A stretch of DNA of 64,000 nucleotides, from NCBI GenBank assembly GCA_019359695.1, contig JAHHGV010000018.1, positions 1 to 64,000 of the forward strand. Direction: 5' to 3'. Shown piece by piece: positions 40,384 through 59,453 of the stretch. Under the pieces are notes generated by a model. That model searched no databases and was not told the origin of the DNA. It saw only the letters and a program-made list of their open reading frames with translations. The position numbers and the translations under genes were made by a program. The stretch comes from Brasilonema angustatum HA4187-MV1 (lineage in GTDB: Bacteria > Cyanobacteriota > Cyanobacteriia > Cyanobacteriales > Nostocaceae). How positions within the stretch are numbered: the stretch's first letter is position 1; each line of letters starts with the position of its first letter.

Positions 40384-41111
40384 GGCGTTGCATAGTCGCG
40401 GGATGAATTAGGCTACTAGGGGTACAAATCCATAATGGAGGTAGTGCAGTAACAATCGAATTGATAGCTTAAGCATTTCTTGGGATTTAGAGTAGCAAAG
40501 AGTTTTTCGATGAAGGCGTGCCAGATAATGTCTTAATCTGGTATTTTTTCACATCACGAGTGTCATGTATGTTTTTTTGATTATCTGGTCACAATCATCG
40601 ATAAAACATGGATAAACTGGATATCCATCTGTTACATAAAAATAACATTTCCAACATTTAATAATCTTCCACAGTTTTGCAAAGGTTTTGGCACTACGGT
40701 CACCTAAAATCCAAGCTAAAATACCTGGAAGACCATTATTTACTGCTGTCCATAGCCAAATTTTTTTTTTTACCGACAAAGGTCTCAAGTTCATTCACCT
40801 TAGCTACTTCGGGAATTTCTGAATGTTCCGGCGCATCTGGTAATTTTTCTGCGACTTTTTTTACCCAATTTATTACGGTATTATGATTGACTTCAGTCAG
40901 TCGCTCAATGGCGCGAAAACCAATGCCATTTACATACATGGTTAGACATTGTTGTTAAATTTCATCGTTGTATCCGCGTTTTGAATATGATTCTATAAAT
41001 TTGCGTTCGCAAGAGACACAGATGTAGTTCTATTTACCACCACGATGCCCGTTATTACGGATATGGTTGGATGCACAATATGGACAGTTCATCCTTTAAT
41101 TATGCAACGCC
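40384..41111 (-). mobile_element. decayed IS1-family insertion sequence
   Basis: Perfect 11-bp terminal inverted repeats, GGCGTTGCATA at 40384-40394 and TATGCAACGCC at 41101-41111, bound a 728-bp element, the normal IS1 size. The flanks GTAAAATC and AAAAAATC are similar (6 of 8) and may be a worn target duplication. The content is an IS1 transposase frame. Confidence 0.88.
40408..41092 (-). pseudogene. IS1-family transposase, degenerate
   Basis: Starting at ATG 41092 the zinc-finger part reads MNCPYCASNHIRNNGHRGGK, then a stop replaces Gln. NYICVSCERKF follows, another stop, then the HTH region MYVNGIGFRAIERLTEVNHN. A frameshift in the A-run near 40765-40773 leads to the catalytic part (KIWLWTAVNNGLPGILAWIL; CYFYVTDGYPVYPCFIDD), and a second shift near 40545 leads to ENTRLRHYLARLHRKTLCYS. 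Two stops and at least two frameshifts make it inactive. Confidence 0.88.
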
Positions 41112-41410
41112 AAAAAATCAATTGATTGTGCTGCCCGATGGTAGAGATATTGTGGATGTGATCGCGGGAGCACGGGATCCAAAAAGTGATATTAATTTGT
41201 TCCGAGAGCGGCAATCAGAATTTGACCTGAATCAAAAGTTTAATGGGGATAAAGGTTATGTGGGAGAACCAGCCATAAAGACTCCGCAAAAGAAACCTAA
41301 AAACCAGCAATTAACTCCAGAGCAAAAACAAAAAAATAAAGAATTATCTACAGAACGAATTTTGGTGGAGCATCTCATACGTTTAGTCAAGATATTTAGA
41401 GTGGCGATAA
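41112..41410 (+). pseudogene. transposase C-terminal fragment (DDE type)
   Basis: Frame with NQLIVLPDGRDIVDVIAGAR, DINLFRERQSEFD and KFNGDKGYVGEPAI, then STERILVEHLIRLVKIFRVA, the C-terminal catalytic part of a cyanobacterial DDE transposase of the IS5-like/DDE_Tnp_4 kind. The N-terminal half is absent: homology begins right at the IS1 end, and it stops after RVA where the sequence diverges. A relic of an element older than the IS1 insertion or joined by rearrangement. Confidence 0.75.
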
Positions 41411-41696
41411 GATTGATTGTATGCGTTCAGGGGGTAGCAGCGACGCAACTGGGGAACGCTACGCTAGATTGAGCGGTGCTGAGTACGGGCAGTTCTAATT
41501 TGCTGTGGGCAATCGCGCATGATCGCAGCCCGCACCCAGCACTCCGCTTCGCCGCCCAATCTTCCCCAGTTGCTGAATCACTCGTGGAGGTAATAAAGAT
41601 TTTAGTTTTCGAGTCAGACCTATGCGGAGCGTTGGGCAGCAGGTAATGTATGATCTGAAAAAGTCACCTAAGGAAGTAAACAAGGAGCAGGTTCAT
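41411..41696. other. unassigned DNA between two IS remnants
   Basis: No gene was recognised. A 12-bp perfect inverted repeat GCAACTGGGGAA/TTCCCCAGTTGC lies at 41445-41456 and 41562-41573, which may be the ends of another small element or relic. Confidence 0.4.
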
Positions 41697-43200
41697 TACG
41701 GTTCAGTTAAGGCTCAAAGTCATGTAAATTAGGCATTGTTTCCAAAATTGGAAATTGAGTGTGGTACATCTCAAGAATTTTTCGTTAGTGTCTCCTGATA
41801 TACAAAGTGGTGAGCTGTTGAAAGCAATCGAGATGGCGATTCCCGCTTTTGCCATCGAACAGGCGTTAAGCGAAGCTCTCCGAAGGAATCGCCAATACCC
41901 AAAAACAGGAGGAACGCAAGCGCTCGCTACCAGCGCAATTAGTGGTCAGCCTGGTAATAGCAATGAGTCTTTGGTCTAGAGACTCAATGCGGGATGTACT
42001 CAAAAACTTAATAGATGGGATGTCAGAGGCATGGGTAAAAGTTGGTAAATACTGGCGGGTGCCCTGTAAATCAGCAATTACACAAGCTCGGCAGCGATTA
42101 GGAGCAAAAGTGATCAGCGATTTATTTCATCAGTTGGTAAGACCAATGGCCACAACCGAAACTTTAGGGGCGTTTTTAAATGGGCTACGAATTGTAGTTA
42201 TTGATGGCACCTGTTTTGATGTCCCAGACAGCGAAGAAAATGCTAGAGTTTTTGGTCGTCCGGGTAGCCGTCCTGGTACAGTTGCTGCGTTCCCAAAAGT
42301 AAGATTAGTCATCTTAGTAGAAGCAGGAACACACATAATATTTGATGCAATAATAGTGTCCATATCGTATGGGAGAACGAGTACGAGCGTTTAAATTATT
42401 ACGCTCAGTACAGGGCAGGATGTTATTAATGTGGGATAGGGGTTTACATTCCTATGCAATGGTACATACAACAGTTTCTAAGGGTTGCGATTATGTGGGT
42501 AGAATCCCTGCTAATGTTAAAATTCTGGCAGAAAAACCTTTAGAAGATGGCTCCTATCTATCGTGGATTTATCCATGTGGAAAGCGAAGAAAAAAAGGTT
42601 GTCACCCGCTAGTCGTCAGAGTTATTGAATACACAATTGAGCATCCTGAAAACCCTACTGAACAACTCAGATATCGCTTGATTAGTAGCTTGTTAAACAT
42701 TGAAAAATTCCCGGCACAGTTGTTAGCCAAAGAATATCATCAACGATGGGAAGTAGAAAATACCATTGATGAATTGAAAATCCATCTTTTGGGACGAAAA
42801 ACCCATGTTCGTTCCCAAAAACCACGAGAAGTTGTACAAGAAGTGTATGGTTGGTTGTTGGGACATTGGTCAGTCAGAGTGTTGATGTTTCAAGCTGCAA
42901 CCAGTGCCTCTGTTCCTCCTTTGTGTCTAAGTTTTACAGGAACATTACGGGTCATTGTCGTGCTATTCCTAAATTTCAACGTTTGCAATCACAAAAATTC
43001 CCCCTTTTTTCGATTGGTTAACCGTAGAGATTCTGGATACGTTATTATCCAAACGAATTCACCGTACTAATCCTAGGGTCGTGAAAAAACCTGTATCAAA
43101 GTTTAGTTCTAAAAAGCTAAAACACAGAGGTACTGGAAAACGACTAGAAGCTCCGAAATTTCATATCACTAATCAGCTTTTTAGCCTTAACTGAACCGTA
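41697..43200 (+). mobile_element. decayed IS4-family insertion sequence
   Basis: Perfect 18-bp inverted repeats TACGGTTCAGTTAAGGCT (41697-41714) and its reverse complement (43183-43200) bound about 1.5 kb containing one disrupted transposase frame. No clear target duplication is visible. The ends match the 188-bp MITE at 37651. Confidence 0.88.
41755..43170 (+). pseudogene. IS4-family transposase, frameshifted
   Basis: Begins MSVVHLKNFSLVSPDIQSGE. It is shifted near 41885 and resumes QEERKRSLPAQLVVSLVIAM and then RIVVIDGTCFDVPDSEENAR (first catalytic Asp). It shifts again near 42350 before MGERVRAFKLLRSVQ and LLMWDRGLHSYAM (second Asp), followed by YHQRWEVENTIDELKIHLLG (catalytic Glu, the YREK-like box). 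It shifts a third time near 42945. Three frameshifts inactivate a typical IS4-type DDE enzyme. Confidence 0.87.
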
Positions 43201-43203
43201 TTG

Positions 43204-43673
43204 GCATCGAATGTCAGTGTCCCCATTTTACAGAACACTATAAAATTAATCCAAAAATACAAAAAAACTGCATAATCATCTGCCTTTAGCACCCATAAAT
43301 AAGTAGGCACTATCATGCAGACAATTTTGTTTCAAAACGAACATGGACGAGTTATGCACAAATTATATATAATTCGGATGATTATTTGTAATAAAATTTA
43401 TCTTTGTAGGTTGGGTCGAGCAAAGCGGAATCCTACGTTTCAAATAACACGATTTTTTGATGCGTAAAACCCAGATTACGCAATTCCTATTATTGTAGTA
43501 CAGAAGTATTAGAAAAAGCAATCAATATTCGCTTCTATTACCGAGTAAAAATACTTAAGGACTTTGGCAGACAAACAATGCCCTACTACGACTCTAAATC
43601 GGTAATATGAATGATTCCTAAAAGAGAAAATTATTCAGTCAACTAAGAAATTGACAATTAAGGATAGTCAACA
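43204..43673. other. intergenic stretch before the DUF1822 gene
   Basis: No gene is visible. The first part is flanking DNA of the IS4-type element; about 43410-43440 carries a short repeat-like GTAGGTTGGGTCGAGCAAAGCG sequence of the kind scattered in cyanobacteria. The promoter of the DUF1822-CHAT genes should lie in the AT-rich last 150 bases. Confidence 0.4.
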
Positions 43674-44912
43674 ATGGTATTTACTTCAAATGATCTAATG
43701 GCTATTTTCCCAAATCAGCTATGGTTAGAAATACCTGAACAGGAGCAGGAACACACATGGCAACTTGTAACCAAACAACTATATTCGAATGCAGCCGCCC
43801 GCTGGAATGCTTATCTAAATACTCTTTGTCTAAATAGTTTTCTGGCTTGGTTTCAAGATGATTTTGACAATGGTGATTTCCAATTGCATCAAGAAGCTGA
43901 TTTATCGATTTGGGAAGTTGTCAATGGGACATTTATTAATTTTGGTGAAACTCGTATTGTCTTAATTCCTGATGATAAAAGCAATATATCCGAATTTTGC
44001 ATTCCTCAAGAATGGGTTGATATTACAAACTGGGTACCTGATTATTATTTGGCTGTACAGTTAAACTTAGAAGAGTGTTGGTTACGGGTGTGGGGATACG
44101 CTACGAGGACACAAATACGCGAACAAGCAAGATATGAAGTGATCAGCCGAAGTTACTGCTTGGATGCCGAAGATTTAATTCCAAATATAAACATAATGTG
44201 GGTAGCACAGGAATTTTGTCCTCCTCAGAAACCAGAAGTTCAATTTTTGCCGAGTTTGTTACCTAGTCAAGTCGAAAAATTACTAGAACAACTTAGTTAT
44301 ACAACGTCTTATTCACCCCGTCTAGATGCGCCATTCCCAGAGTGGGCAGCAATAGTAGCATCAGATGAATATCGACAGCAACTGTATCACCTCCGGATAG
44401 AAAACTGCAACCAAAAAATAGTCGAATCTAGCCAGGCTGTAACTGGTAGTAATTTAAGCCTTTGGTTCCAAAATATTTTTACAGCAGGATGGCAGTCTTT
44501 AGATGCACTCTTTGTTCTAGAACAAAGAGATTTCGCTTTTAATTTCCGCAGTAATTCTCTGTTTAACTCGGAGATCAAGATTAAAGGTGTTAAGTTAATT
44601 GATCTCGGAATGCAACTGAGGGAAAAATCAGTGGTGCTACTGCTTGGTTTAACTCGGGAAGCTGATGAAAAAGTATGTATTCGTGCGCGGTTATGTCCAA
44701 CGACTGGAGAAAATTACCTGCCAGCTAATATGAAATTGGTTTTGCTCAGTGACTCGGGAACGGTACTTCAAGAAGTCTGCTCGCGCAGTCACGATAACTA
44801 TATTCAGCTTAAAAGATTTAAACCTTTACAAGGTACGAGGTTTAGTATCAAAGTTTCTTTGGGCAATGTCAGTATCAAGGAAAATTTTGTGCTGGAGGAA
44901 ATTGATGGGTAG
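43674..44912 (+). CDS. DUF1822 family protein
   Basis: Protein of 412 residues matching cyanobacterial DUF1822. It has an N-terminal ARWNAYLNTLCLNSFLAW segment, IWEVVNGTFINFGETRIVLIP, and the central IPQEWVDITNWVPDYYLAVQ with LRVWGYATRTQIRE. The C-terminal region (about 300-410) is beta-rich (GVKLIDLGMQLREKSVVLLLGL). Biochemical function is unknown. In cyanobacteria such genes tend to accompany CHAT proteins and a sigma-like gene, and here the CHAT gene follows 69 bases downstream on the same strand, suggesting a substrate, sensor or regulator of the protease (inference). No membrane helices or signal peptide. Confidence 0.85.
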   Translation: MVFTSNDLMAIFPNQLWLEIPEQEQEHTWQLVTKQLYSNAAARWNAYLNTLCLNSFLAWFQDDFDNGDFQLHQEADLSIWEVVNGTFINFGETRIVLIPDDKSNISEFCIPQEWVDITNWVPDYYLAVQLNLEECWLRVWGYATRTQIREQARYEVISRSYCLDAEDLIPNINIMWVAQEFCPPQKPEVQFLPSLLPSQVEKLLEQLSYTTSYSPRLDAPFPEWAAIVASDEYRQQLYHLRIENCNQKIVESSQAVTGSNLSLWFQNIFTAGWQSLDALFVLEQRDFAFNFRSNSLFNSEIKIKGVKLIDLGMQLREKSVVLLLGLTREADEKVCIRARLCPTTGENYLPANMKLVLLSDSGTVLQEVCSRSHDNYIQLKRFKPLQGTRFSIKVSLGNVSIKENFVLEEIDG

Positions 44913-44981
44913 ATTGCGATAAAATAGACGCGACAAATAGAAAAAAAGTAACATTAATTACACTGTCTTAAGCCCTAACAA

Positions 44982-47900
44982 ATGAGTAAATCAGTAGTCA
45001 TTAATCTGGGAAGCGGTGATTACCAGAGTGGATTTCCAAGAGTAACTGCTCAAATTTGGTCTGAAGAACACCTTCTACCAGAGCAATTCATTGGCAGTTT
45101 ACCTCCAGCAGCTTATCTGATTGAACTGTATAAAAATTGGCAGTCACTTTACCAGCATCTCTACGCCCACCAACAGCTACTTTCACCACCAGCAAAAGAC
45201 AACTCTCCAGAGATAGAGATTGAGGAAGGTGATATAACTAACGTTTCTGTTGTCAGCTTCGATGAGTTATCCGAAGAATTACAAGCAGGAATTAATGAGT
45301 GGTTCCGGTCAAGGGAGTTTCTTGATATTGACCAACAATTGCGATCACGACTCACAACAGCAGAAGAAATTCGAGTCATCCTTGAAACTGGTGATATGAT
45401 GCTGCGGCGATTACCTTGGCATCGCTGGAATTTCTTTACAGATTTTCCTTTTGCTGAAATGGTGCTGTCTCGACCGGAGTACAAACGTACTTTAGTGAAC
45501 CCTGCAAAAGACCAAAGTGGGAAAGTTAGAATTTTAGGGGTTTTGGGTAATAGCTTCGGTATTGATTTTGAGAGAGAAAGTCAATTTCTCAACAGCTTAG
45601 CGGATACCCAAACTGTTTTTCTCGTTAATCCATCGCGTCAAGAACTAGACGCCCAGCTTTGGAATTCGGACGGCTGGGATATTTTATTTTTTGCAGGTCA
45701 CAGTCAAACAGAAAATGAAACAGGGCGAATTTATATCAACGAGAACCCGACAAATAACAACTTGACGATTGAAGAATTAAACCAAGCGCTGCTAGCGGCT
45801 ATAGAAAATGGTTTAAAATTGGCACTTTTTAACTCTTGTGATGGGTTGGGACTAGCTGTAGCATTGGAGAAATTAAATATTCCCGCAGTAATTGTCATGC
45901 GAGAACCTGTGCCGAATCGTGTAGCGCAGGATTTTTTTCAGTATTTTCTAGAAGCTTTCGCAGTTCGTAGACTATCTTTATATTTAGCAGTACAGCAAGC
46001 GCGCCGGAAGTTGCAAGGGGTAGAAGATAAGTTTCCTGGTGCGTCTTGGTTGCCTGTGATTTGCCAAAATCCATCAGTAGAAGCCCCAACTTGGCTGACT
46101 TTGGGGGGAATGCCTCCAAGTCCATATCGCGGTTTATTTGCTTTTCGGGAAGAGGATACACATCTATATTTTGGGCGAGAAAAATTTACCCAGGATTTGC
46201 TTTTGGCAGTAAAAACTAAGCCATTGGTGGCTGTGGTTGGTGCTTCTGGAAGCGGTAAGTCAAGTGTCGTTTTTGCTGGCTTGATTCCAGCCCTACGGGT
46301 GTCGGATGAATTTACGGATGTAACGGATAATTTGTTTGTGAATCCAATAAATAACTCATCTGTTATATCCCCAACAAAACCTGCTGCCCCACATATTATC
46401 TGTTTTCGTCCGGGGCATAATCCAATTGCTGGGTTGGCAGTAGCTTTAGCACCTTTATTGTACTTTGAATCACACGAGCAAGTAAACAATTCAAAATCCA
46501 TAGACGCGCAAGCGGCTTCTCGCAGGGAAATCCAAAATCTAAAATCAAATGCCCGTTCCCAAATTGAACTAGAAGTAGCGAACACACTCCGGCAGGATCA
46601 CCAAGCTTTAACCAAAATCATCAAAAACTTAGTGCAGCAATCAAGTTGCACCCGCGTAATACTAATAGCTGACCAATTTGAAGAACTTTATACTATAAGC
46701 CTAGAATCAGAACGTCAACCTTTCTTAGATGGACTGCTCAAAGCCTGTAGAGACGCTCCAGCGTTTACCGTTGTTTTAACACTGCGCGCCGACTTTTACG
46801 GACATGCTGTTTCTGACCGCCGCTTCAGCGATGCTTTACAAGGGGCAGTTTATAACCTCGGTCCGATGAGCCATGAGGAATTGCGATCGGTGATCGAAAA
46901 ACCTGCGGCACAAATGCAAGTCCGACTAGAGGAGGGATTGACAAATCTACTCATTAGTGATCCATTAGGATACCCCGGACGTTTACCGTTACTGGAGTTT
47001 GCCCTGACACAAATGTGGTCAAAACAACTCTGTGGTTGGTTGACTCATGCTGCTTACAATGAAATAGGTGGTGTTGAGCAAGCTTTAGCGAATCACGCTG
47101 AGGCGGTTTATGCTCAACTAACTCACAACCAAAGGCTCTTGGTGCAGCGGGTATTTATTCAGTTGGTGCAACCGGGGACAGGAACAGACTTCAACCGACG
47201 ATTGGCGACGATTGATGAGGTAGGAAGCGAAAACTGGGATTTGATAACGCAACTTGCGGACGCCCGTGTGCTAGTAACAAACCGTAATGAGTTATCAGGT
47301 GAAGAAACGGTGGAAATCGTCCATGAAGCGTTAGTTCGTTCCTGGGGACGCTTGGAGAATTGGCTGCTACTGGCGTCCGAGTTTCGCCTTTGGCAAGAGC
47401 AATTGCGGGTAGCCATCCATCAGTGGGAGAGTAGTGGTTTTGATAATGGAGCTTTGTTGCGAGGAAAGCCTCTGGCGGATGCTCAACACTGGCAGCACAA
47501 ACGCGTGGAGGAACTGAGTTCCAGGGAGATAAATTTCATCGAGCGTTCTTTGGTACTTCAGGAGTGGGAGAAACAGACGCAAAAGCGCAGGCGCAGATTT
47601 ATTATATATGGGCTAGTGAGTGGCTTAATAGTTACTTCGACTTTGGCTGTTGTTGCTTGGTCGCAATGGCACAATTCGGTCATTAGTCAGATTCAAGCGA
47701 TCGATGAATCTTCCGAAGCGCTGTTTGCCTCAAATCAAAAGTTGGATGCGCTCAAAGAAGCAATCAGGGCGAAGCGAGAACTGCAAAAATTAGGTGGGAC
47801 AGATGCAGCCACCCAGCTAATTGCTGAATCAGCGCTACGCCGAGCAGTTTATGGAGCTGTTGAGTACAATCGTTTGGAAGGACATAGCGGTGAAGTCAAG

Positions 47901-49712
47901 AGCGCAGTGTTCAGCCCTGATGGTAACACGCTCGCCTCAACCAGTAACGATAAAACTGTCAAACTTTGGAAGCGTGATGGTACGTTGCTGACTACCTTTG
48001 AGGGACACAAAGCTGCGGTGTTAGATGTAGCTTTCAGCCCCGACGGTCAAACTCTAGCTTCAGCGAGTGAAGATAAGACCATCAAGCTGTGGAAACGAGA
48101 CGGCACGTTGTTGGGTACTCTTGAGGGACACGATGCTGCGGTTACCAAAGTTGCTTTCAGCCCTGACGGTAAAACTCTCGCCTCAGCAAGTGAGGATCAT
48201 AGTGTGAAATTGTGGAGAGTATCAGGAAAAGTGCCTGTCTTACTGACGACTCTCAAGAAACATCAAGAATCGGTTGAGGCAGTTGTTTTCAGCCGCGACG
48301 GGAATATGATCGCCTCGGCTAGTAAAGACAAGACCGTCAAACTATGGAAGCGGGACGGCACGTTCTTGACCACGGTTGCTCGGCATAAGGATACAGTTTG
48401 GGATGTTGCTTTCAGCCCCGATGGAAACACAATTGCCTCGGCGAGTGCAGACAATACTGTCAAACTGTGGAACAAGGACGGCAAGTTGCTGAAAACTTTG
48501 GAGGGGCATCAAGCTCCCGTTTCAGGAGTTGCTTTCAGTCCTGACGGTAAGACTCTAGCTTCGGCAAGTTGGGACAATACTGTCAAGCTCTGGAACAAGG
48601 ATGGCACCTTGTTGACAACACTTAATGGACATAGCGATAGAATTTGGGGAGTCACTTTTAGCCCTGACAGCAAAACTTTAGCCTCAGTAAGTGGGGATAT
48701 GACTATCAAATTCTGGAAACTAGATAGCGCATTGCTAACTACCCTGCGAGGTCATAGCGCTCCGGTTATCGGAGTTGCCATTAGCCCTAACGGTAAGATG
48801 GTTGCCTCGGCGAGTGACGATGGAACCGTCAAACTCTGCACTCGGGATAGCACGTTACCCATTACGCTTGACCACAAAGCACCAGTTTACGCAGTAGTTT
48901 TCAGTCCCGACGGTCATACGCTCGCCTCGGCGGGTTCGGACAGCACAGTCAAACTGTGGAACAAAAACGGCACCTTACTGAAAACTCTTAAAGGACACAA
49001 AGCTGCGGTTTGGGGAGTTGCTTTTAGCCCCGACGGGAACACGATCGCTTCGGTAGGTTGGGACAAAACAGTCAAATTGTGGAACAAAAACGGCACCGAA
49101 CTTACGACTCTTAAGGGGCATCGAGATTCGATTTGGGATGTTGCAATAAGTCCTGACGGCAATACAATCGCCTCAGCTAGTGGAGACATGACAGTCAAGC
49201 TCTGGAAGCGAGACGGCACCGAACTGACGACTCTTAAGGGACATAAAGCTGCGGTTTGGGGAGTTGCTTTTAGCCCTGACGGCAATATAATCGCCACCGG
49301 TAGTGAAGATAAGACGGTTAAACTTTGGAAGCGAGACGGCACTTTGCTGACCACTCTTGGGGGACATCAATCTATAGTCTTTGGAGTGGCTTTCAGTCCT
49401 GACGGTAAAATTTTAGCTTCGGCGAGTGCAGACAAAACCGTCAAACTGTGGAACGTGCAAGCAGGCAAGTTACCTGTTTTACTGGCTACTCTCAATGGGC
49501 ATAGTGGTAGAGTTTGGGGAGTTGCTTTCAGTCCTGACAGTAAAACTCTCGCCTCAGCGAGTGAGGACAAGACAGTGATTCTGTGGAAATTAGATCGTGT
49601 TGTTGATCTAAATAATATACTAGCGTATGGTTGCGACTGGGTGCGAGATTATCTGAAAACTAATCCGCATGTGAGTCAGAGCGATCGCCATATTTGCGAT
49701 TTTAGTCAATAA
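44982..49712 (+). CDS. CHAT protease - nSTAND NTPase - 14xWD40 protein
   Basis: A 1576-residue signalling protein. Residues about 1-160 form a cyanobacterial N-terminal region. About 185-370 is a CHAT caspase-like protease with catalytic His240 in FFAGHSQ and Cys286 in NSCDG. From about 388 (SPYRGLFAFREED) comes an nSTAND1 NTPase with Walker A GASGSGKSS at 420-428 and Walker B LIADQFEEL around Asp564, then a winged-helix-like part. A hydrophobic helix near 873-893 follows. From about 966 there are 14 WD40 repeats (GH…FSPDG…S.D.TVKLW), enough for two seven-bladed propellers. Expected model: WD40 ligand sensing triggers NTP-driven oligomerisation and activates the protease (inference from STAND biology). 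Flanked by DUF1822 and sigma-like genes. Confidence 0.9.
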   Translation: MSKSVVINLGSGDYQSGFPRVTAQIWSEEHLLPEQFIGSLPPAAYLIELYKNWQSLYQHLYAHQQLLSPPAKDNSPEIEIEEGDITNVSVVSFDELSEELQAGINEWFRSREFLDIDQQLRSRLTTAEEIRVILETGDMMLRRLPWHRWNFFTDFPFAEMVLSRPEYKRTLVNPAKDQSGKVRILGVLGNSFGIDFERESQFLNSLADTQTVFLVNPSRQELDAQLWNSDGWDILFFAGHSQTENETGRIYINENPTNNNLTIEELNQALLAAIENGLKLALFNSCDGLGLAVALEKLNIPAVIVMREPVPNRVAQDFFQYFLEAFAVRRLSLYLAVQQARRKLQGVEDKFPGASWLPVICQNPSVEAPTWLTLGGMPPSPYRGLFAFREEDTHLYFGREKFTQDLLLAVKTKPLVAVVGASGSGKSSVVFAGLIPALRVSDEFTDVTDNLFVNPINNSSVISPTKPAAPHIICFRPGHNPIAGLAVALAPLLYFESHEQVNNSKSIDAQAASRREIQNLKSNARSQIELEVANTLRQDHQALTKIIKNLVQQSSCTRVILIADQFEELYTISLESERQPFLDGLLKACRDAPAFTVVLTLRADFYGHAVSDRRFSDALQGAVYNLGPMSHEELRSVIEKPAAQMQVRLEEGLTNLLISDPLGYPGRLPLLEFALTQMWSKQLCGWLTHAAYNEIGGVEQALANHAEAVYAQLTHNQRLLVQRVFIQLVQPGTGTDFNRRLATIDEVGSENWDLITQLADARVLVTNRNELSGEETVEIVHEALVRSWGRLENWLLLASEFRLWQEQLRVAIHQWESSGFDNGALLRGKPLADAQHWQHKRVEELSSREINFIERSLVLQEWEKQTQKRRRRFIIYGLVSGLIVTSTLAVVAWSQWHNSVISQIQAIDESSEALFASNQKLDALKEAIRAKRELQKLGGTDAATQLIAESALRRAVYGAVEYNRLEGHSGEVKSAVFSPDGNTLASTSNDKTVKLWKRDGTLLTTFEGHKAAVLDVAFSPDGQTLASASEDKTIKLWKRDGTLLGTLEGHDAAVTKVAFSPDGKTLASASEDHSVKLWRVSGKVPVLLTTLKKHQESVEAVVFSRDGNMIASASKDKTVKLWKRDGTFLTTVARHKDTVWDVAFSPDGNTIASASADNTVKLWNKDGKLLKTLEGHQAPVSGVAFSPDGKTLASASWDNTVKLWNKDGTLLTTLNGHSDRIWGVTFSPDSKTLASVSGDMTIKFWKLDSALLTTLRGHSAPVIGVAISPNGKMVASASDDGTVKLCTRDSTLPITLDHKAPVYAVVFSPDGHTLASAGSDSTVKLWNKNGTLLKTLKGHKAAVWGVAFSPDGNTIASVGWDKTVKLWNKNGTELTTLKGHRDSIWDVAISPDGNTIASASGDMTVKLWKRDGTELTTLKGHKAAVWGVAFSPDGNIIATGSEDKTVKLWKRDGTLLTTLGGHQSIVFGVAFSPDGKILASASADKTVKLWNVQAGKLPVLLATLNGHSGRVWGVAFSPDSKTLASASEDKTVILWKLDRVVDLNNILAYGCDWVRDYLKTNPHVSQSDRHICDFSQ
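47877..49600 (+). repeat. 14 tandem WD40-coding repeats
   Basis: Units of about 123 bases, many sharing near-identical stretches such as the codons for AVWGVAFSPDGN and TVKLWKRDGT. The three units around 48980-49340 are almost identical, pointing to recent duplication or conversion. Unit lengths vary by a few codons where an extra KxPVL insertion occurs (48230, 49470). Confidence 0.85.
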
Positions 49713-50187
49713 ATTACTGGATTATTTCTAAATTTATAGAGCAAACATTTCTTACTCAAGTCTTTAAAGTTTTTAATTTTATCCTACCTCTATCAAAAGT
49801 TACATATATTTATGACTCAAGATAGAAATATTTAGCAATTTATTAATTATTAATAATTTAAGAGACTTGTAATTTTTCAAGAAAGACAAGACAGTAGTAC
49901 TGCATAACAAACTATTAGTTACACCTATATATTAAAAGTAGGTCGCATCTCCTGCTTCACCCGAAAACGGGGTGCAGGGTGTGGGGTGTGGGGAGAAAAC
50001 TGTCTTCTCTGGGTTTTAAGCCCAGTAAAAAAAAGAATTGCCTTAAGTGGCGCAGCCCGATAAAGCAATGCGTTTTTGTTTCAATCTTACGCTATAGCGC
50101 GTGGCTCCTTACACCCCACACCCTTGTGAATGCTTTGCTATTGCGTATTAATACAGCATTAACTGCAATTTATAGTGAGTCAGAAAT
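49713..50187. other. intergenic stretch before the sigma-like gene
   Basis: AT-rich in its first 200 bases. GGGTGTGGGGTGTGGGG (about 49977-49993) and TTACACCCCACACCC (50111-50125) are inverted-repeat partners around 120 bases apart and look like the ends of a small non-autonomous element. Part of it can be read as a short open frame, which I do not regard as a gene. Confidence 0.45.
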
Positions 50188-51741
50188 ATGAATAAACGTC
50201 AAATTATAATACAAAAGTTTTCCACATTTCTTAGCTTTTTAGGTGCAAGAAAAAGTCTCATACACGAATGGATAACAGAACCGGAATTGGAACGTAATAT
50301 CAAACAACAAGTGCAAACACATCCAGAAAAGACAGCAGAATTATGGGCACTTTACTTTTTAGATCTTTTACAAAGTAAATCCCAGGAAGAGGAGAAAAGT
50401 GGAGACACCGGGGTACAGAAAAATAACAGACAATTGGTCTATACATTATCCTCTATACATTCTCCAGTCACTACTCAATATTCTTCTACCAACCAGCATT
50501 TAAAAGCAGGAAAGCATCTGTCAGCTTACTTACAAGAAGCTTGTTATAGAGCTGCACAAAAGATACAAAAGCAATTTCAATCAATTCAGCATAAATATTC
50601 ATTAGAAGATTTTTTTCAAATCGGTAATTTATTTGTTACTCAACCAGCAAAACTCTTCCGTAGTTTTAAATTAGAATATCAACACAGTAACTTGGAAAGT
50701 TATGCAAAAACCGCACTCTTTCGCTTCATTGGCAATACAATTTATACCCAAGATGTAGAAGCAAAGCGAGAAAAGTTTTCTGATTATGGCTTGTTGAGGG
50801 ATTTAAATAACAAAGAATTAAAAGAAGCCTTAGCATCAAAAGGAATAAACACTAGCCAACTTGATTCATACTGCTTAGCTAGACAATGTTTTAATGCAGT
50901 TTTTCAACCTCAAAAAAGAGAAAGTAGCCGTAGTTTAGAATCTCCTAGTCCGGAAGATTTAACTCAAATTGCCTTCTGCTACAATCAGCGACACAATCAG
51001 TTAAACTTGCCAACCGTACTAGCTGACTCTAAGAAAATTCAAGAAATGCTATCAACCTGCATTCAGGCTGCGCGCGACTATCGTACTAAACGTGTTCTGA
51101 CTTTAGAAAATGATGACATTATTTCTGACCCCATGCCTACTCCTTGGGATATTGTCATCCAAACAGAAGAAACAGAGCAAATAGAATCCTTAGTCTCCAA
51201 GATATTTATAACCATACCAGAGATTGGTCAAACAATGCTAAAACTTTGGCTGGGATTAAACTTAACTCAAGCTGAGATAGCAACAGTTTTAAAGCACAAG
51301 TATTCCGAATTACAAAAACAGTATCAAGTGGCTCGTCAGTTGGGAAAATATAGTAGAAATTTCTTAAAAGAATTTCTTCAGCAGTGTCATCAACTAAATT
51401 CCGGAATCTCTTTGTATAATGACAAAGATATAGAACTCATTCAAGAGTCGTTAGATGAATGTTTACAGTCATACTGTCAACGTTTATTATACGCAGATTT
51501 AGAGCAATTAGCTCACCAATACTACAGTGAAGACGAATTTTTCATATTGACTGATTTAATACACAATGAACAACCAGAATACGAACAAACAAGTAAGTTC
51601 ATAGAAAGAAAGCAAGCTTTTATACAAGCTTTTGAAAAGCAACTAGAAAAAAATATGAATTTATCTCCTGAGTCTTTGAAACTTGTCAACAGGAAAATAG
51701 CTCGTATTGTAGGCGAATGGTTACAATCGTCAGTTAACTAA
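50188..51741 (+). CDS. divergent sigma-70-like protein of the CHAT/DUF1822 set
   Basis: Protein of 517 residues resembling the unusual cyanobacterial sigma-70-family proteins that travel with CHAT and DUF1822 genes. The start RQIIIQKFSTFLSF, then HLSAYLQEACYRAAQKI, the region-2-like FFQIGNLFVTQPAKLFRSFKLEYQHSNLESYAKTALFRFIGNTI, YGLLRDLNNKELKEAL, and a region-4-like helix-turn-helix LTQAEIATVLKHKYSELQKQYQVAR (about 368-392). It is longer than usual, with an extra C-terminal helical region of about 100 residues. The first 10 codons fit an ATG start. Whether it still binds polymerase is uncertain. Same strand as the CHAT gene, 475 bases downstream. Confidence 0.78.
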   Translation: MNKRQIIIQKFSTFLSFLGARKSLIHEWITEPELERNIKQQVQTHPEKTAELWALYFLDLLQSKSQEEEKSGDTGVQKNNRQLVYTLSSIHSPVTTQYSSTNQHLKAGKHLSAYLQEACYRAAQKIQKQFQSIQHKYSLEDFFQIGNLFVTQPAKLFRSFKLEYQHSNLESYAKTALFRFIGNTIYTQDVEAKREKFSDYGLLRDLNNKELKEALASKGINTSQLDSYCLARQCFNAVFQPQKRESSRSLESPSPEDLTQIAFCYNQRHNQLNLPTVLADSKKIQEMLSTCIQAARDYRTKRVLTLENDDIISDPMPTPWDIVIQTEETEQIESLVSKIFITIPEIGQTMLKLWLGLNLTQAEIATVLKHKYSELQKQYQVARQLGKYSRNFLKEFLQQCHQLNSGISLYNDKDIELIQESLDECLQSYCQRLLYADLEQLAHQYYSEDEFFILTDLIHNEQPEYEQTSKFIERKQAFIQAFEKQLEKNMNLSPESLKLVNRKIARIVGEWLQSSVN

Positions 51742-52059: not shown

Positions 52060-53331
52060 CTAATCAACTTTTTTTGGTGCAAGATGCGAGTCAAGCCAGA
52101 GCTGACCTAAGATGTTAAGTATGAATGCAACATCCGATTCTTCTTCATACGGGTGGCTTAACGAAGAAAGAACGATTTGTCCAGCCGCACGTTCTGGATG
52201 CTGCACCGCCATAGCACTCAACGTCCGCCCAGGAGCAACTTGTAGCAATATCCGCTCTGGTTTTTTAAAAAGTTCTTGCAAACCTTCGCAAAAGCGCACA
52301 GTTTCGCGCATATGTCTAGCCCAATAGTTTGGATCTGTTGCTTGATCCGTTGTAATCCAAGTCCCGGTAACGCTAGAAATATACGGTATTTGAGGTGGTC
52401 TAAGAGTCATTTTTTCTACATAAGATTTAAATGGCTCTATGATGGAGTCCATTTCCTGTGAGTGAGGAGCATGGGAGGCATCTAAAGGAAGACACATCAC
52501 ATCCTTCTGGCTGAGTCGATCCTCTAATTCCTCTAAAGCTTTTGCGGGACCTGAAACAATGCAAAGGTTTGGCCCGTTAATTGCAGCTAGGGATATCTCG
52601 CCTAAAAATGGGCGCACTTCCTTCTCTGAAAGCTCAATGGCAAGCATGGCTCCACTAGGCAGTTCTTGTATAAGTCGTCCACGCACAGCTACTAGTTTTA
52701 ATGCATCTTTGAGGGAGAAAACGCCAGCCAGAGTTGCTGCAACGTATTCACCAAGGCTATGACCGATCATTGCTTGGGGAAGCACGCCCCACTCTTGCCA
52801 TAACTTAGCTAAAGCATACTCAATCACAAAGAGTGCTGACTGTGCAATCAATGTTTGTTGAAGTTGCTGCGTGGCAACGTTTATCTGTTTTTCATCAGGA
52901 TATATTATGTTGCGAATGTCTAAGTCCAAATCAGGCTTTAAAAATTCTGAGCAGATATCAACTTGTTCCCGAAATGTCTTCTCAGTTTGATAAAGTTCCA
53001 ATCCCATATTTACATACTGCGCTCCCTGCCCTGGAAACATAAACACAATAGGTCGCTCTTCGGACTCTTGGAAGCGTGTAAAAACTTTTTTGGAATCGAG
53101 TGTTTCAAGGGCAGTCACAGCATCACTAAGGTTATTGCAAACAAGCATTCGACGATGCTTAAAAGCTTTTTCATGAACTTGATAGGAGCCAGTAATATCA
53201 ACAAAGTCTTGGTTGGTAGATCGCTTTAAGTGTTCAATCAGGTTTGTGGTTTCCGTCTCTAAAGCAGAGCTTGTTTCTGCACAGAGTACTAACAAATGCC
53301 AAGAACGAGGTTTTTCTAAAGTTTTATTCAT
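52060..53331 (-). CDS. stand-alone polyketide acyltransferase
   Basis: Protein of 423 residues: the KS-AT linker (WHLLVLCAETSSALETETTN; FKHRRMLVC) and then a full acyltransferase domain with FMFPGQGAQYVNMG, nucleophile GHSLGEYVAA, the Arg in VAVRGRLIQELPSGAML and a His motif SHAPHSQEM where SHAFHS is usual. No ketosynthase or carrier protein is attached, so it must load a carrier in trans. Beside FkbH-K genes it is a candidate loader for the oxygenated extender or for a skipped module (inference). ATG 53331 has AGGAGA upstream; the frame is open to 53391. The changed Phe to Pro in the specificity motif makes the substrate unpredictable. Confidence 0.88.
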   Translation of the reverse strand: MNKTLEKPRSWHLLVLCAETSSALETETTNLIEHLKRSTNQDFVDITGSYQVHEKAFKHRRMLVCNNLSDAVTALETLDSKKVFTRFQESEERPIVFMFPGQGAQYVNMGLELYQTEKTFREQVDICSEFLKPDLDLDIRNIIYPDEKQINVATQQLQQTLIAQSALFVIEYALAKLWQEWGVLPQAMIGHSLGEYVAATLAGVFSLKDALKLVAVRGRLIQELPSGAMLAIELSEKEVRPFLGEISLAAINGPNLCIVSGPAKALEELEDRLSQKDVMCLPLDASHAPHSQEMDSIIEPFKSYVEKMTLRPPQIPYISSVTGTWITTDQATDPNYWARHMRETVRFCEGLQELFKKPERILLQVAPGRTLSAMAVQHPERAAGQIVLSSLSHPYEEESDVAFILNILGQLWLDSHLAPKKVD

Positions 53332-53408
53332 TTGATTCTCCTGAAGATATAAATTCATTATCCAAAATTCTCTGTTGCGTATTATTACCACTTAGCGGCT
53401 TGATGTGC

Positions 53409-55307
53409 TTATTTTGAATCAGAGATAGTTGTTGATGTAAAAGACCCCACCTGTTCTTGGTTTAAAGTTTTTGTTTCTGCTAGAACTTGCTCTTCAATAA
53501 CTGATGCTAATTCGGCTACAGTTGGATTTTTAAATATAGCAATCGTAGGAATGTCTGTTGGAAATATTTTTTTTAACTGGGAAATAATTTTTATAGCGAC
53601 TAAGGAATTACCTCCCAAACTGAAAAAATTATCATAAACACCGACTTGTTGAATACGGAAAATTTTTTGCCAAATATCAGCAATCTTTTGCTCAGTATTA
53701 GACCTGGGGGCAACATAGCTATTTTGTAAGTTCAGTCGCTGACGTTGTTGTGCTATTTGAATTGATTCTTGTTCTTGTGATGATAAAACATTGTTGTCTG
53801 ACTCTTTGTGAGTCTTCTGCCATTGCTCTTTTTGAGATTCTCTCCCGTGGTGTTGGTTCTCGAAGAGATAGGTAGGTAAAGGAAGTGTACTAGAATGGCG
53901 ATTTCCATAGAATTTCGACCAATCCACAGACACACCAGCTAGCCAGATTTGACCCAGTGTGTTGAACGAGAACGCCAAATGCGATTGTTGGTCATAGGAG
54001 TTTGGTAATGAGGCGAGTACTAGCCGTTCTGATACTTTGGCGCTAGCTGGGTGTTGCAGCGCTAGACTACCCAAAGTTTGGCCTGGTCCAACTTCTAAGA
54101 GGATTTGAGCCGGCATTTGCCATAATGTTTCAATTCCATCAGCAAAACGTACAGTTTGACATAAATGCCTGCCCCAATAACTTGGATCGGTGGCTTCCAT
54201 TGCTGTAATCCAAGTTCCTGTGACATTGGATATGTATGGAATTTGAGGAGGCTTGAGGTCAAAGCTTTTGACTAACTGGATGAACGGCTCCAAAATTGCC
54301 TCCATGACTGGAGAATGAAAAGCATGAGTAGTTTGCAATTGCCGACAAGCTATCCCATCTTTCAACAGATGCTGCTCTAATTTAGCTATCGCCTCTGTAG
54401 ATCCTGCAACTACACACAGCTGAGGCCCATTGACAGCAGATAAGCACAGATGCTCTGTGAGCAGTGGCTGGAGTTCTATCTCTGAGAGGGAAACTGCTAA
54501 CATTGCCCCAGTGGGTAATTGTTGAATGAGTTGACCTCTTTTAGCAACCAGAGCTAAGGTCTCCTCCAGAGATAAAACACCAGCTAAAGTTGCCGCTACA
54601 TACTCGCTGATGCTGTAACCAATAAGCGCCTGAGGCTTTATCCCCCATGCCATCCACATCTGGGCTAGCGCATACTCAATGACAAACAGTGTTGGTTGAG
54701 CAATATAAGTTTGATTTAGTTTTTGAGTGTTGACATCTACTGGAGTTTGGTCACGTTGCAGCATCCGTCGTAAATCTAGCTTCTGGGAAGACATGACTGC
54801 GGCTGGATTGTTTGCTTGTCGAACTTGCTCGGCTTGTTCCTGATGAGGATAAAGTACATCTCGCAAGTCAAAACCCAGGTGAGGTTTGAGGAGTTCTGAG
54901 CAACGAGCTATATGTTCGCGAAAAGTTGGCTCAAGCTGATAAAGCTGTAAAGCCATATTGACATATTGCTCTCCTAAGCCAGGAAACATGAAAACTATAG
55001 ATTGATTGTTAGTTTCTTGAATGCTGCTGTTAAAAATACGTTTGGGGTCTCTGGTTGTCAGCGCACTCGCTGCATCTTGGCGATCGCAACACACTAGTAT
55101 CCGACGGTGATTAAACGCCTGACAATCAACTTGGAGAGTATAAGCTAAATCATTAAAGTTTATTTCAGAATTCTGGTTTAAAAATTCAGCTAGATTATCA
55201 GTTGTAGTCTCCAAGCCTGATTCTGTTTTGCTAGATAGCACCAGCAACTGCCACGGCAAAGCAGAGTTTGATTGTTTATTGCTATTAGAAATTAAAGAAT
55301 TGTTCAT
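53409..55307 (-). CDS. acyltransferase-acyl carrier protein didomain
   Basis: Protein of 632 residues: linker, AT domain, then an ACP/PCP-type carrier with the phosphopantetheine Ser in LGGNSLVAIKI (about residues 570-600). The AT has FMFPGLGEQYVNMA and THAFHSPVM, but its nucleophile motif reads GYSISEYVAA in place of GHSxGEYVAA, so the His before the Ser and the Gly after it are replaced. It might be impaired, or a transferase with changed chemistry. An AT-ACP without KS is the layout of a loading module. ATG 55307 follows AGAGGT; the frame extends to 55349. It ends 77 bases before the AT gene. Confidence 0.88.
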   Translation of the reverse strand: MNNSLISNSNKQSNSALPWQLLVLSSKTESGLETTTDNLAEFLNQNSEINFNDLAYTLQVDCQAFNHRRILVCCDRQDAASALTTRDPKRIFNSSIQETNNQSIVFMFPGLGEQYVNMALQLYQLEPTFREHIARCSELLKPHLGFDLRDVLYPHQEQAEQVRQANNPAAVMSSQKLDLRRMLQRDQTPVDVNTQKLNQTYIAQPTLFVIEYALAQMWMAWGIKPQALIGYSISEYVAATLAGVLSLEETLALVAKRGQLIQQLPTGAMLAVSLSEIELQPLLTEHLCLSAVNGPQLCVVAGSTEAIAKLEQHLLKDGIACRQLQTTHAFHSPVMEAILEPFIQLVKSFDLKPPQIPYISNVTGTWITAMEATDPSYWGRHLCQTVRFADGIETLWQMPAQILLEVGPGQTLGSLALQHPASAKVSERLVLASLPNSYDQQSHLAFSFNTLGQIWLAGVSVDWSKFYGNRHSSTLPLPTYLFENQHHGRESQKEQWQKTHKESDNNVLSSQEQESIQIAQQRQRLNLQNSYVAPRSNTEQKIADIWQKIFRIQQVGVYDNFFSLGGNSLVAIKIISQLKKIFPTDIPTIAIFKNPTVAELASVIEEQVLAETKTLNQEQVGSFTSTTISDSK

Positions 55308-55451
55308 TATTACCTCTTTGTAATGTTGAAATTCATTTAATATTTGCATTGAGTAATCTTAAATGAGTTATGAACTCTCTACTCTCTTCCTTTTTCTGGC
55401 AAAAACGCTGCGCGCCTTTTTTGTGCCTTTGTGGTTCGTTAAAGATACTGT

Positions 55452-56522
55452 TCACACAGGTAGGACTATATCTACATAATCAGGAAAAGAATATTTGTAA
55501 TTTAATTGATTATCAAAAATCAAAAGATTATTTTGAGTATCAAGTTCTTTAAATCCAGCAAATTTATAAGTGATATACATCATCCTATTTCTATCATTTG
55601 AGACAAACTCAGCACACAATTTAACATTTTGATTGTTTGCCATAGATATAATATGATTGAGCATAATTGTCCCTACGCCTCTAGACATAACGCGGCAGGA
55701 CATTAACAATAGTTTTATTGTCCATATAGTATCTTGACATTCAATAAGAGCTAATCCAATTTTTCCGTAACTGCCATACCTATCATCCAAGCTAGCAATT
55801 AGTAGCTTATGCTTATCTGATTGACAAAAATGGTTGAGTTCTTCGTAAGAGTATGTATAACCTGTTGTATTTAATTGGTTTGTGCGTATTGTTAATTCTT
55901 CGGCTCGTTGTAAATCCTCCTCTTTAGCAGAAGAGATGGTAAAGCGCATCTTTAGAGTAGCTAAAAACTCTTCTTTAGAACCAACAAATTCTTCCTCAAC
56001 CTGATTGCGTTTTATATCGCTGAGATACATAAGTCTTCTATTTTTGGAATCCTTTGTAATAAAACGAGGATTCATTTCTGGCATATCTAGCAACTGATCG
56101 AGATGAGTTGTATTGATACACAGAACGTCAGGTAATGAAAAATTTACCTCTTCCAATTCAAATAGTTGGTCATCAATGAAAGCTATTGCATCTATTCCAA
56201 TATTGATTGATTTAGCGATTTTTTGAATAGAGGAAGCTTTAGAGTTCCAATTGATTTGTGGATATATAAAATACTCATGTAATCCAAAGTCTTCCAACTT
56301 CAACATTGCTTTATTCTGTTCATTTCTGCTAGCTACAGATTGTAATATTCCTCTACTATCCAAAATTTTGATGATGTCAATGACATTATTCTGCAAGAAA
56401 ACCCGATCGTCCTCTAGTAAGACACCATGCCATATAGTGTTATCAAGATCCCAAACGACACACTTGATAGCTTTTTTAAATTTTTGTTTATCTTTTGCTT
56501 GTTCAGCACTTAAATTAATCAT
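55452..56522 (-). CDS. fkbH: FkbH-like HAD-family glyceryl-ACP loader
   Basis: Protein of 356 residues. The HAD phosphatase-like half has the nucleophile motif VVWDLDNTIWHGVL (Asp-x-Asp), SVASRNEQNK, and IAFIDDQLFELEEV. The second half resembles a GNAT acyltransferase (LIECQDTIWTIKLLLMSCRVMSRGVG). FkbH proteins take 1,3-bisphosphoglycerate, remove the phosphate and place the glyceryl group on an ACP, the first step to hydroxymalonyl- and methoxymalonyl-ACP. The neighbouring FkbI, J and K complete that route. Length and order match the family. Confidence 0.93.
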   Translation of the reverse strand: MINLSAEQAKDKQKFKKAIKCVVWDLDNTIWHGVLLEDDRVFLQNNVIDIIKILDSRGILQSVASRNEQNKAMLKLEDFGLHEYFIYPQINWNSKASSIQKIAKSINIGIDAIAFIDDQLFELEEVNFSLPDVLCINTTHLDQLLDMPEMNPRFITKDSKNRRLMYLSDIKRNQVEEEFVGSKEEFLATLKMRFTISSAKEEDLQRAEELTIRTNQLNTTGYTYSYEELNHFCQSDKHKLLIASLDDRYGSYGKIGLALIECQDTIWTIKLLLMSCRVMSRGVGTIMLNHIISMANNQNVKLCAEFVSNDRNRMMYITYKFAGFKELDTQNNLLIFDNQLNYKYSFPDYVDIVLPV

Positions 56523-56555
56523 CTTTTTAAATTCCTGTTACTAATTGTTAAGACA

Positions 56556-57710: not shown

Positions 57711-57757
57711 CCCTTTTACTTAAGTGTTTACAAATGTTAAAGCTTATATTCTTTACT

Positions 57758-58015
57758 TCAATTCTGTGCAGATATAGCCAGCTTTTTTTCTAGAAAGCTG
57801 CTCATAGCATTTATAGTGCTGAAGTTTTCAATTTCAAGGTCTTCATTTTCAATCGTTATTTGAAACTCTTTCTCTAGAAAGAGAACTAGCTGCATAGCAA
57901 ACATCGAATTTACAAAGCCAAGAGAGAATATATCTTCCCCTTCTTGAAATTCATGTTCACCAAAAGACTGAGTTAGAAATTTTTTGATTTTGTCTTTAGC
58001 TTCTTTCATTATCAA
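57758..58015 (-). CDS. fkbJ: FkbJ-like acyl carrier protein
   Basis: Discrete carrier of 85 residues. The phosphopantetheine Ser lies in LGFVNSMFAMQLV (about residue 36), with the canonical DSL replaced by NSM as in other methoxymalonate-type carriers. The fold is completed by FLEKEFQITIENEDLEIENF. It carries the glyceryl unit through FkbH, FkbI and FkbK. Two adjacent ATGs are possible starts; AGGTTGATA precedes the first. Confidence 0.9.
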   Translation of the reverse strand: MIMKEAKDKIKKFLTQSFGEHEFQEGEDIFSLGFVNSMFAMQLVLFLEKEFQITIENEDLEIENFSTINAMSSFLEKKLAISAQN

Positions 58016-58056
58016 CCTGCTGTAAATAGTACTTATGGGTTAACATTTTTTATTTC

Positions 58057-58911: not shown

Positions 58912-58964
58912 AATTTATTGTGAAGGTAAATTTCCAGACAGAAAAGAATTAGCTTGAATTGAAG

Positions 58965-59195
58965 TTACGAGTGTGTTTTACCTGCTGACTCCTCCATTGT
59001 TTTCCGCAAGCTAAGCGGTCTCATGTCGATCCACACTTCCTTAATGTATGCTAAGCATTCTTCCTTGGAACCACTTTTACCTGCATCTTGCCAGCCAAGA
59101 GCATTTTCTCGTTCGGCAGGCCAGATAGAATACTGCTGTTCGTGATTTACAACCACTTTGTAAATTGTTTTGTCTTCTTGTTCATGTGTATTCAT
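58965..59195 (-). CDS. MbtH family protein
   Basis: Small chaperone-like partner of nonribosomal peptide adenylation domains, 76 residues. Diagnostic residues are visible: [30 protein letters not shown] and the C-terminal [10 protein letters not shown]. Its presence implies that at least one NRPS adenylation domain belongs to this cluster outside the window, so the product is probably a hybrid peptide-polyketide. Confidence 0.95.
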
Positions 59196-59453
59196 GGTTG
59201 TCTCCTATTAGTTTATATTTCTGCTTCTTTACCTGCTAATGCTCCCACCACCACAGGTTCGTATACTGGAATTTCAAATTTAAAAGTCTATTTTTCTTTT
59301 ATTTTCTAACGTTCTCAATTCGCTCATTCCACTGACTGAATAACGTAAATTTGTCAACAAATAAGCTTTGCAGTATTTTTCCATTGTTGCCATAGTGATA
59401 CCAGTCATAAGATTTTTGTGAACGGTGTGGTTTATTTACTTGAAAGCGAGAGT

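Follow-up and report, generated by a model that had tools for sequence, protein, structure and literature searches.

What brings a DUF1822 protein, a large protease with a sensor-like end and a divergent sigma factor together in one place on the chromosome of Brasilonema angustatum HA4187-MV1? The stretch analysed (the window) comprises positions 1 to 64,000 of contig JAHHGV010000018.1, and in its list of open reading frames (ORFs) three consecutive plus-strand genes encode D (DUF1822), C (CHAT-nSTAND1-WD40) and S (divergent sigma-70-like). Our reading, to which we give somewhat less than an even chance, is that the set would be a protease-gated sigma-factor switch, in which C acts on D and thereby frees S for promoters carrying a two-part motif. 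Directly supported are the conservation of the set, the intact catalytic residues of C, sigma-family membership of most S relatives, the motif itself, its near restriction to one group of S proteins, and its enrichment in genomes with that S. The features concerned are listed below in window coordinates.

43269..43296, plus strand: motif copy 1, TGCATAAT-N15-CCCAT, promoter-like, 378 bp 5′ of D; no mismatches to AAMCTGCATAA-N16-CCYATAWATA (the 37-base form)
43674..44912, plus strand: D, DUF1822 protein of 412 amino acids (aa); PF08852, 285 bits; AlphaFold2 model with a mean predicted local distance difference test score (pLDDT) of 80.6
44982..49712, plus strand: C, 1576 aa, EACC2-like region, CHAT protease, nSTAND1 NTPase and WD40 array, with Pfam matches
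45612..46016, plus strand: CHAT domain match of C (PF12770), residues 211–345; His240 codon 45699–45701, Cys286 codon 45837–45839
46122..47444, plus strand: nSTAND1 domain of C (PF20703), residues 381–821; Walker A codons 46239–46262
47862..49616, plus strand: WD40 array of C, approximately residues 961–1545; 14 Pfam stretches
49901..49928, plus strand: motif copy 2, TGCATAAC-N15-CCTAT, promoter-like, 260 bp 5′ of S; three mismatches to the 37-base form
50188..51741, plus strand: S, divergent sigma-70-like protein of 517 aa; TIGR02937, E 1e-5; SigF region 4 by profile against PDB, E 1.2e-6

Conservation of the gene set and its arrangement in the window

With regard to conservation, relatives of the window S occur in 67 genomes (its own included) out of 148 surveyed from the same taxonomic order. 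One hundred S-centred loci were used; the rows of the own genome, duplicate rows for a single ORF in G042 and in G084, and the row with the weakest match were omitted. A DUF1822 gene lies 3′ of S, on the same strand and within 2.5 kb, in 91 of these, and 37 have, no more than 5 kb away on that strand, a gene that the CHAT model used for C detects, two of these (L131 and L153) being TPR-CHAT genes. When GTDB genomes were scanned from the side of D, and the best 80 of 410 relatives taken, S was present at 76 of the 80 loci, directly before D in 72 and behind C in four (L253, L191, L192 and L193). As for the four loci without S nearby, L190 ends inside C, L255 shows none, L199 (the same as G139) has its S on another contig, and the genome of L214 carries it about 12 kb away. 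C follows D in 70 of the 80, and of the ten where it does not, five or more stop at a contig end (L205, L213, L224, L244 and L255); S-D-C is the commonest order. The two collections share at least four contigs, as matched by length (L199 = L183, L236 = L104, L246 = L140 and L268 = L090). A preliminary description of this DNA had named the same three families in a row, which agrees with the coordinates and with the PF08852, PF12770, nSTAND1 and WD40 matches; it had further proposed a single system. The neighbourhood is conserved, and, together with the same motif before D and S, this makes the proposal that D, C and S would form one system a well-supported one.

Such a three-gene set has already been published, and the window holds a variant of it. 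The portion of Kaur et al. (2021, eLife, PMC8195603) devoted to this family reports the association of EACC2-caspase, extracytoplasmic function (ECF) sigma and DUF1822 genes, and proposes an autopeptidase–sigma link. The features given there are found here too, namely a constant N-terminal region joined to a caspase-like domain (CHAT in C), a C-terminus that varies and includes CHASE2 and STAND, and neighbouring sigma and DUF1822 genes. The window differs from that account in its order D-C-S, in a C that ends in nSTAND1-WD40 and in a D model without a TPR array; the motif and its candidate targets are added to it.

The order D-C-S is common to Brasilonema CT11, Scytonema tolypothrichoides and Rhizonema NSF051, in which D is 82–91 % and S 83–88 % identical to the window proteins; in the metagenome-assembled genome of Rhizonema NSF051, C is split into two frames. 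The next-closest systems (L194–L212; D 52–56 % and S 43–48 % identical) are ordered S-D-C, with a short C where complete; L199 has no S on its contig. Because the orthologues in G125 and G075 lie 12 and 6.6 kb apart, on the same contig and pointing apart, S appears to have been relocated relative to D-C and yet to have remained close. The genes between D-C and S in these two genomes are DUF928-, TPR-CHAT- and TPS-like, as named through Pfam-tested homologues, and in G161 D and S lie on one contig about 12 kb apart.

These arrangements bear on whether the window S might be a bystander, placed behind C with an upstream region of its own and belonging to a group that is split from D-C in some relatives. 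The spacer of 475 bp between C and S would suit this, and with such a spacer adjacency need not imply a single operon; so would the failure of S to adjoin D in G139, G125 and G075, with the intervening genes just named in the latter two. The upstream stretch of S is partly conserved in three relatives. We nevertheless consider a bystander highly improbable, as CT11, S. tolypothrichoides and NSF051 keep D-C-S, the next-closest S proteins stand mostly directly before D, the window D and S are preceded by the same motif, and D and S share a contig in G125, G075 and G161.

A promoter-like motif and its candidate targets

The upstream regions of close relatives have a word in common, which is one half of the bipartite element AAAACTGCATAAT-N15-CCCATAAATAAGTAG, whose 28-base core occurs in nearly all sites and which is summarised as TGCATAAT-N15-CCCATA. 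Conserved columns extend beyond the search pattern (e.g. A at −3, 1.23 bits over 35 sites), and most spacer columns are not conserved. In regions made up of 400 bp upstream of S and a further 60 bp, the motif is found for 30 of 32 members of the window S group versus none of 41 in the next group (other strand 2, backward pattern 0), these groups, A (L190–L225) and B (L226–L269), being split by rank of D identity and not by a tree. The motif was first noticed in upstream regions of clade A, and the count of 30/32 is thus not independent of its discovery; less tied to it are de novo dyads, genome counts and neighbouring genes. In a pattern-free search for spaced pairs, the dyad TGCAT-N18-CCCAT came first with 27 of 32 regions, as opposed to four or fewer in three shuffles. 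The next S group has pairs of its own upstream of S, TATGC-N13-AATTA and CCTCG-N16-ATGTT, each in 15 of 41 regions, which are perhaps a second promoter code.

The 11-base pattern AAACTGCATAA on its own, allowing one mismatch, was set aside, as it occurs at chance level in the window and only the two-part motif is informative. In the order survey, the loose form appears in the forward direction in 2 of 99 regions upstream of S versus 11 on the wrong strand, and by itself is therefore weak evidence; the 28-base form is found in one. The J-Box of Nostoc SigJ, given in the relevant part of PMC6495340 as GGGaAtacT with a weak −35, is likewise a recognisable element for a cyanobacterial alternative sigma factor, that of S being a candidate. 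It was considered as the motif and rejected, its sequence being different from TGCATAAT-N15-CCCATA. A literature search found no published promoter for these sigma factors, and the promoter-like motif for these S proteins is new here.

The window contains two copies, one before D and one before S, and these are two of the seven matches to TGCATAAN{15,16}CCYATANA in the 8.5 Mb of its own genome, the backward control giving none. Across genomes, the exact form TGCATAA-N16-CCCAT has 77 sites (backward control 9) in 16 that hold this S (132.5 Mb), at least one of them in 15 of the 16, compared with 11 sites (control 4) in 22 without it (138.3 Mb), an approximately sevenfold lower density. With sites treated as independent and kinship ignored, the binomial p for this enrichment is 4e-14, or 3e-10 when one seed site per genome is subtracted. 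The 16 genomes were hand-picked from group A loci plus G125 and G075, with S confirmed in G161; the comparison set unites 14 genomes lacking any S match with 8 that have other S proteins only.

Seven of the ten sites in G125 fall on the contig of 64 kb that carries this locus (p 4e-13). Within the stretches retrieved, the window group has 19 sites per 0.71 Mb that do not precede S or D (21 before removal of two counted twice through the L075/L182 overlap), compared with 4 in 0.715 Mb for the next group (p 0.0015) and a single one in the 1.73 Mb of the other stretches (p 1e-9). For 19 sites upstream of genes, a set that takes in one further site from L184 and omits the doubled ones, the median distance to the next ORF is 82 bp. 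The genes so preceded, as tested with Pfam, include those for a DUF928 protein and a TPR protein (both L200), a Nif11 leader peptide, a HAMP/Tll0287-like protein, a ferric-reductase-like membrane protein, a CAP protein, a TPS-domain protein, a ParA-like ATPase, a C39-like peptidase and a Peptidase_C14 caspase, the caspase gene being that of G075. By eye, five loci have the DUF928-like gene and three the TPR gene. In Planktothrix PCC 11201 (G161), sites stand before another Nif11-like peptide just beyond S and before a HlyD-like protein, and in the own genome a site of exact spacing (C11:885) is followed by a gene whose beginning resembles a caspase/CHAT protein. Loci were available for 30 of the 77 sites, and the genes there, as at the own-genome sites, were named by eye; several appear unrelated (peroxidase-like, DUF99-like and kinase-like proteins). 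In Spirirestis and Hassallia (G150 and G151) many sites share an extended spacer, TGCATAARTTGATTT...CACCCAT, before genes of varied kinds, again judged by eye. This is perhaps another promoter or a repeat family, and the genome-wide counts are therefore an upper bound for an S regulon. Clade restriction, co-occurrence and position together suggest that S reads the motif.

The three proteins

No Pfam match above cut-off was obtained for the window S. TIGR02937 is matched at E ≤ 0.01 by 46 of 49 aligned S sequences, the window S included, and the S-family profile that finds SigF region 4 in PDB finds region 2 weakly (E 0.23). The AlphaFold2 model (mean pLDDT 78.1, predicted template modelling score 0.46) gives top Foldseek rows that are mostly chains of transcription initiation complexes, presumably sigma subunits. 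Most S relatives can thus be assigned to the sigma-70 family on their profile matches, which upholds the earlier call of a divergent sigma-70-like protein. Among seven short proteins (213–299 aa) encoded before short D genes, sampled from the own genome, G125 and G075, five match sigma factors weakly (E 1e-7 to 0.07) and two, L014 and L020, have no sigma match; a sigma-like first gene may thus be general. Brasilonema CT11 (G148) carries two window-type S genes, C296:22318–23868 and C196:74145–75695, which are 89 and 87 % identical.

D matches PF08852 over its full length and divides, in its AlphaFold2 model, into an N-module of about residues 1–250 and a beta-sandwich-like C-module of about residues 300–406. 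The label of TPR protein, given in the relevant part of PMC8195603, does not suit it, since the model has, by its helix list, no TPR array but an N-part of mixed structure followed by a beta-sandwich-like C-part; extra helical repeats are visible by eye in the alignment of some long D relatives. The C-module scores above 30 bits in 101 of 102 S-D loci that adjoin an EACC2-CHAT gene versus 23 of 54 that do not, using a model built from eight D proteins that have no long S beside them and include none of the window-type D proteins L076, L182, L183 and L190, which have S nearby. The N-module scores a median of 7.8 bits in the group without S versus medians of 285 and 326 with S, the group without S also containing high-scoring window-type D proteins; beside short sigma-like genes it is weak or absent by profile score and alignment. 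This pattern is compatible with D bridging S and C. The own genome has ten DUF1822 matches above cut-off, eight of which adjoin an EACC2-CHAT gene.

A bridge may be of either sign, and D might instead be a co-activator or chaperone of S, with C switching the pair off by degrading S or D. In 54 of the 100 S-centred loci D is present and C is not found within 5 kb on the strand (some being cut by a contig end); such pairs are common, and S-D may therefore work without a linked protease. Foldseek also finds D unlike known anti-sigma folds. That the C-module is mostly retained where C is retained fits contact with the protease and leaves the sign of the effect ungiven, and in the known CHAT case, as set out in the pertinent part of PMC10028731, a sigma factor is freed, which counts against a positive partner. 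We judge this alternative improbable.

Some S-D pairs are followed by a different kind of protein. In L100 (behind D, 9547–10716), L105 and L109, D lacks the C-module and is followed by proteins of 1266–1752 aa with another caspase-like pattern, YFSGHG (YFSCHG in L109)/LLSCD; these are perhaps proteases of a second class that serve this sigma pair.

As regards C, the CHAT domain scores 47.8 bits to PF12770 in a scan of the N-terminal 380 aa, and nSTAND1 scores 371 bits. The catalytic pair, H240 within FFAGHS and C286 within FNSCDG, accompanies a Walker A motif (GASGSGKS, residues 420–427) and a Walker-B-like VILIADQFEEL, so that the earlier account of an intact CHAT dyad, Walker motifs and 14 WD40 repeats holds. 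The His/Cys pair is kept in 181 of 182 related proteins, the remaining one having a gap. The N-terminal region is EACC2-like, an assignment resting on architecture and gene context. Searched against the own genome, the N-terminal 385 aa of C yield 16 matches, of which 14 reach E ≤ 1e-35.

It is at the C-terminal end that C varies. Among 106 third-gene proteins of at least 600 aa, the ends are CHASE2 in 87, nSTAND with WD40 in 7, nSTAND in 4, WD40 in 1 and none of these in 7, the last comprising three TPR-CHAT and, by eye, two periplasmic-binding-protein-like examples. The window C thus bears a minority sensor, nSTAND-WD40 in place of the usual CHASE2, and the sensing by WD40 that had been suggested for it may apply to the window, where the array is present, but not to the family as a whole. 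The array has been exchanged in Brasilonema UFV-L1, where its dS (synonymous divergence) is 1.1 versus 0.13–0.19 in the EACC2, CHAT and nSTAND domains. All domains of C are under purifying selection in four pairs compared (omega 0.13–0.54; one linker 0.33–0.91). Positive selection on the WD40 sensor was considered and rejected, with omega at 0.30–0.33 in the trio of the window, CT11 and S. tolypothrichoides and array replacement confined to UFV-L1. A paralogous set of the own genome, L019 (C63, 401–7875), consists of C, then a protein of 492 aa that matches helix-turn-helix/sigma models weakly, then D; its WD40 array is 75 % identical to that of the window, its N-terminal CHAT region only 32 %, and the likeness is likely to reflect array exchange between paralogues.

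A sensor of this kind could instead serve conflict. In an account following Kaur et al., C would sense an invader, undergo autoproteolysis and kill or arrest the cell, with S as an alarm and D as a scaffold rather than an inhibitor or substrate. The same gene set and an autopeptidase proposal appear in the relevant part of PMC8195603, and the nSTAND-WD40 sensor with its array exchanged between close relatives, the motif before the caspase gene of G075, and the many paralogues in one genome (10 DUF1822 and 14 EACC2-CHAT matches) are all in keeping with it. CHASE2 as the commonest third-gene end fits general sensing instead, and the purifying selection in the four pairs also runs counter to such a role. 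PADLOC, applied to the window C, returns only HEAT-ARM_XIII in the WD40 region and, near the Walker motif, two weak matches, mad3 (E 0.0012) and mad8 (E 0.036). The motif-bearing genes of relatives, moreover, suggest secretion and peptide products no less than caspases. The role in immunity or cell death to which the preliminary description pointed is accordingly not sustained by these results, and we regard a conflict system as unlikely.

Beyond the set, transposase remnants lie directly upstream (41071–43070, by Pfam), consisting of a DDE_Tnp_4 match at 41071–41472 and an IS4-type remnant whose N-part (41942–42394) and DDE part (42369–43070) are in overlapping frames. On the minus strand, 52060–63996 appears by eye to be a polyketide-type biosynthesis run, with translations read to 57710, and includes acyltransferase-like, FkbH-like and acyl-CoA dehydrogenase-like proteins.

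A proposed protease-gated sigma switch and known systems

In the switch that we favour, C would be a receptor protease whose nSTAND-WD40 part (CHASE2 in most relatives) senses an intracellular ligand and activates CHAT. D would be a two-part adaptor and putative anti-sigma factor, its N-module holding S and its C-module being read by C, and cleavage or remodelling of D by C would release S. Freed S would then direct RNA polymerase to AAACTGCATAAT-N15-CCCATAAATA promoters, of which those before D-C and before S would provide positive feedback, and those of relatives would also lie before secretion, peptide-product and caspase genes. The reading of the motif by S, the inhibition of S by D, the cleavage of D by C and the nature of the signal are all inferred.

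A number of results weigh against this reading. The C-module trait of D changes only three times on the S tree, independent pairs amount to about 2 for and about 0–0.1 against, and significance is unreachable; tracking of C by the C-module through repeated independent loss was accordingly rejected as not significant on this tree, which included the mislabelled TPR-CHAT loci L131 and L153 (the counts of 101/102 and 23/54 are the corrected ones). Profile, NCBIfam and Foldseek searches found neither a known anti-sigma domain or fold for D nor a match to Csx30, the presence of a Csx30 model or chain in these collections being unchecked; D may act in an anti-sigma-like manner despite the lack of a recognised fold. 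The window S taken alone reaches 25.2 bits with TIGR02937, below the cut-off of 42.9, and its Foldseek matches are all at E ≥ 0.1. In the own genome the 37-base form, with up to three mismatches, has 17 matches versus 4 in the control, and the putative regulon there is therefore not sharply defined. The motif stands before D but not before S in G139, G125 and G075, which counts against simple autoregulation of S in those genomes, and the Scytonema tolypothrichoides genome lacks the exact CCCAT form even though its S is 88 % identical.

The closest likeness is to type III-E CRISPR systems, in which, according to the relevant part of PMC10028731, the TPR-CHAT protease Csx29 cuts Csx30 in its C-part, and the N-part of Csx30 binds the ECF-like CASP-sigma, which Csx30 inhibits. 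Both have a CHAT protease, a two-part protein and a sigma factor in one locus, but the sensor of the present set is nSTAND-WD40 or CHASE2, and the searches just described found no sequence or fold match of D to Csx30. Because D is not recognisably Csx30, the resemblance would be one of working and not of membership; no cas match was found among eight window proteins scanned, a dedicated search for Cas7-11 or a CRISPR array not having been made. In the regulated proteolysis of anti-sigma factors of RseA/RsiW type (cited in PMC10028731), as in the model proposed here, a protease frees a sigma factor upon a signal. The present set differs in that the fold search found no known anti-sigma fold for D, and the window C has one hydrophobic stretch past residue 380 by a simple hydropathy count. 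RseA/RsiW-type proteolysis also uses other protease families. The preliminary description had called a protease that releases a sigma factor distinctive: such a link is plausible here, but it is not unprecedented, given the association in PMC8195603 and the cleavage of an inhibitor of an ECF-like sigma factor by a CHAT protease in PMC10028731. Further papers on EACC2 or on the function of DUF1822 were not found in a literature search, and the main text of a 2024 survey of cyanobacterial sigma factors (PMC11119718), as far as it is available, does not contain the word CHAT.

More broadly, and more tentatively, the set may represent a CRISPR-free cyanobacterial class in which a sensor-CHAT protein acts on a DUF1822 anti-sigma factor and this in turn on a dedicated sigma factor, each clade having its own promoter code and exchanged sensors, and the clade of the window controlling its own locus and, in relatives, a regulon of peptide, secretion and caspase genes through TGCATAAT-N15-CCCATA promoters. 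The motif is a handle that predicts responsive genes and allows a reporter test, and candidate targets of the coupled sigma factor, a point left open by Kaur et al., can now be listed in relatives as DUF928, TPS-domain, Nif11, CAP and caspase genes. If the proposed switch is real, DUF1822 could be assigned the role of a sigma regulator under the control of a protease, and the CHAT logic of type III-E CRISPR would turn out to be a single branch of a broader mode of signalling that does without CRISPR.

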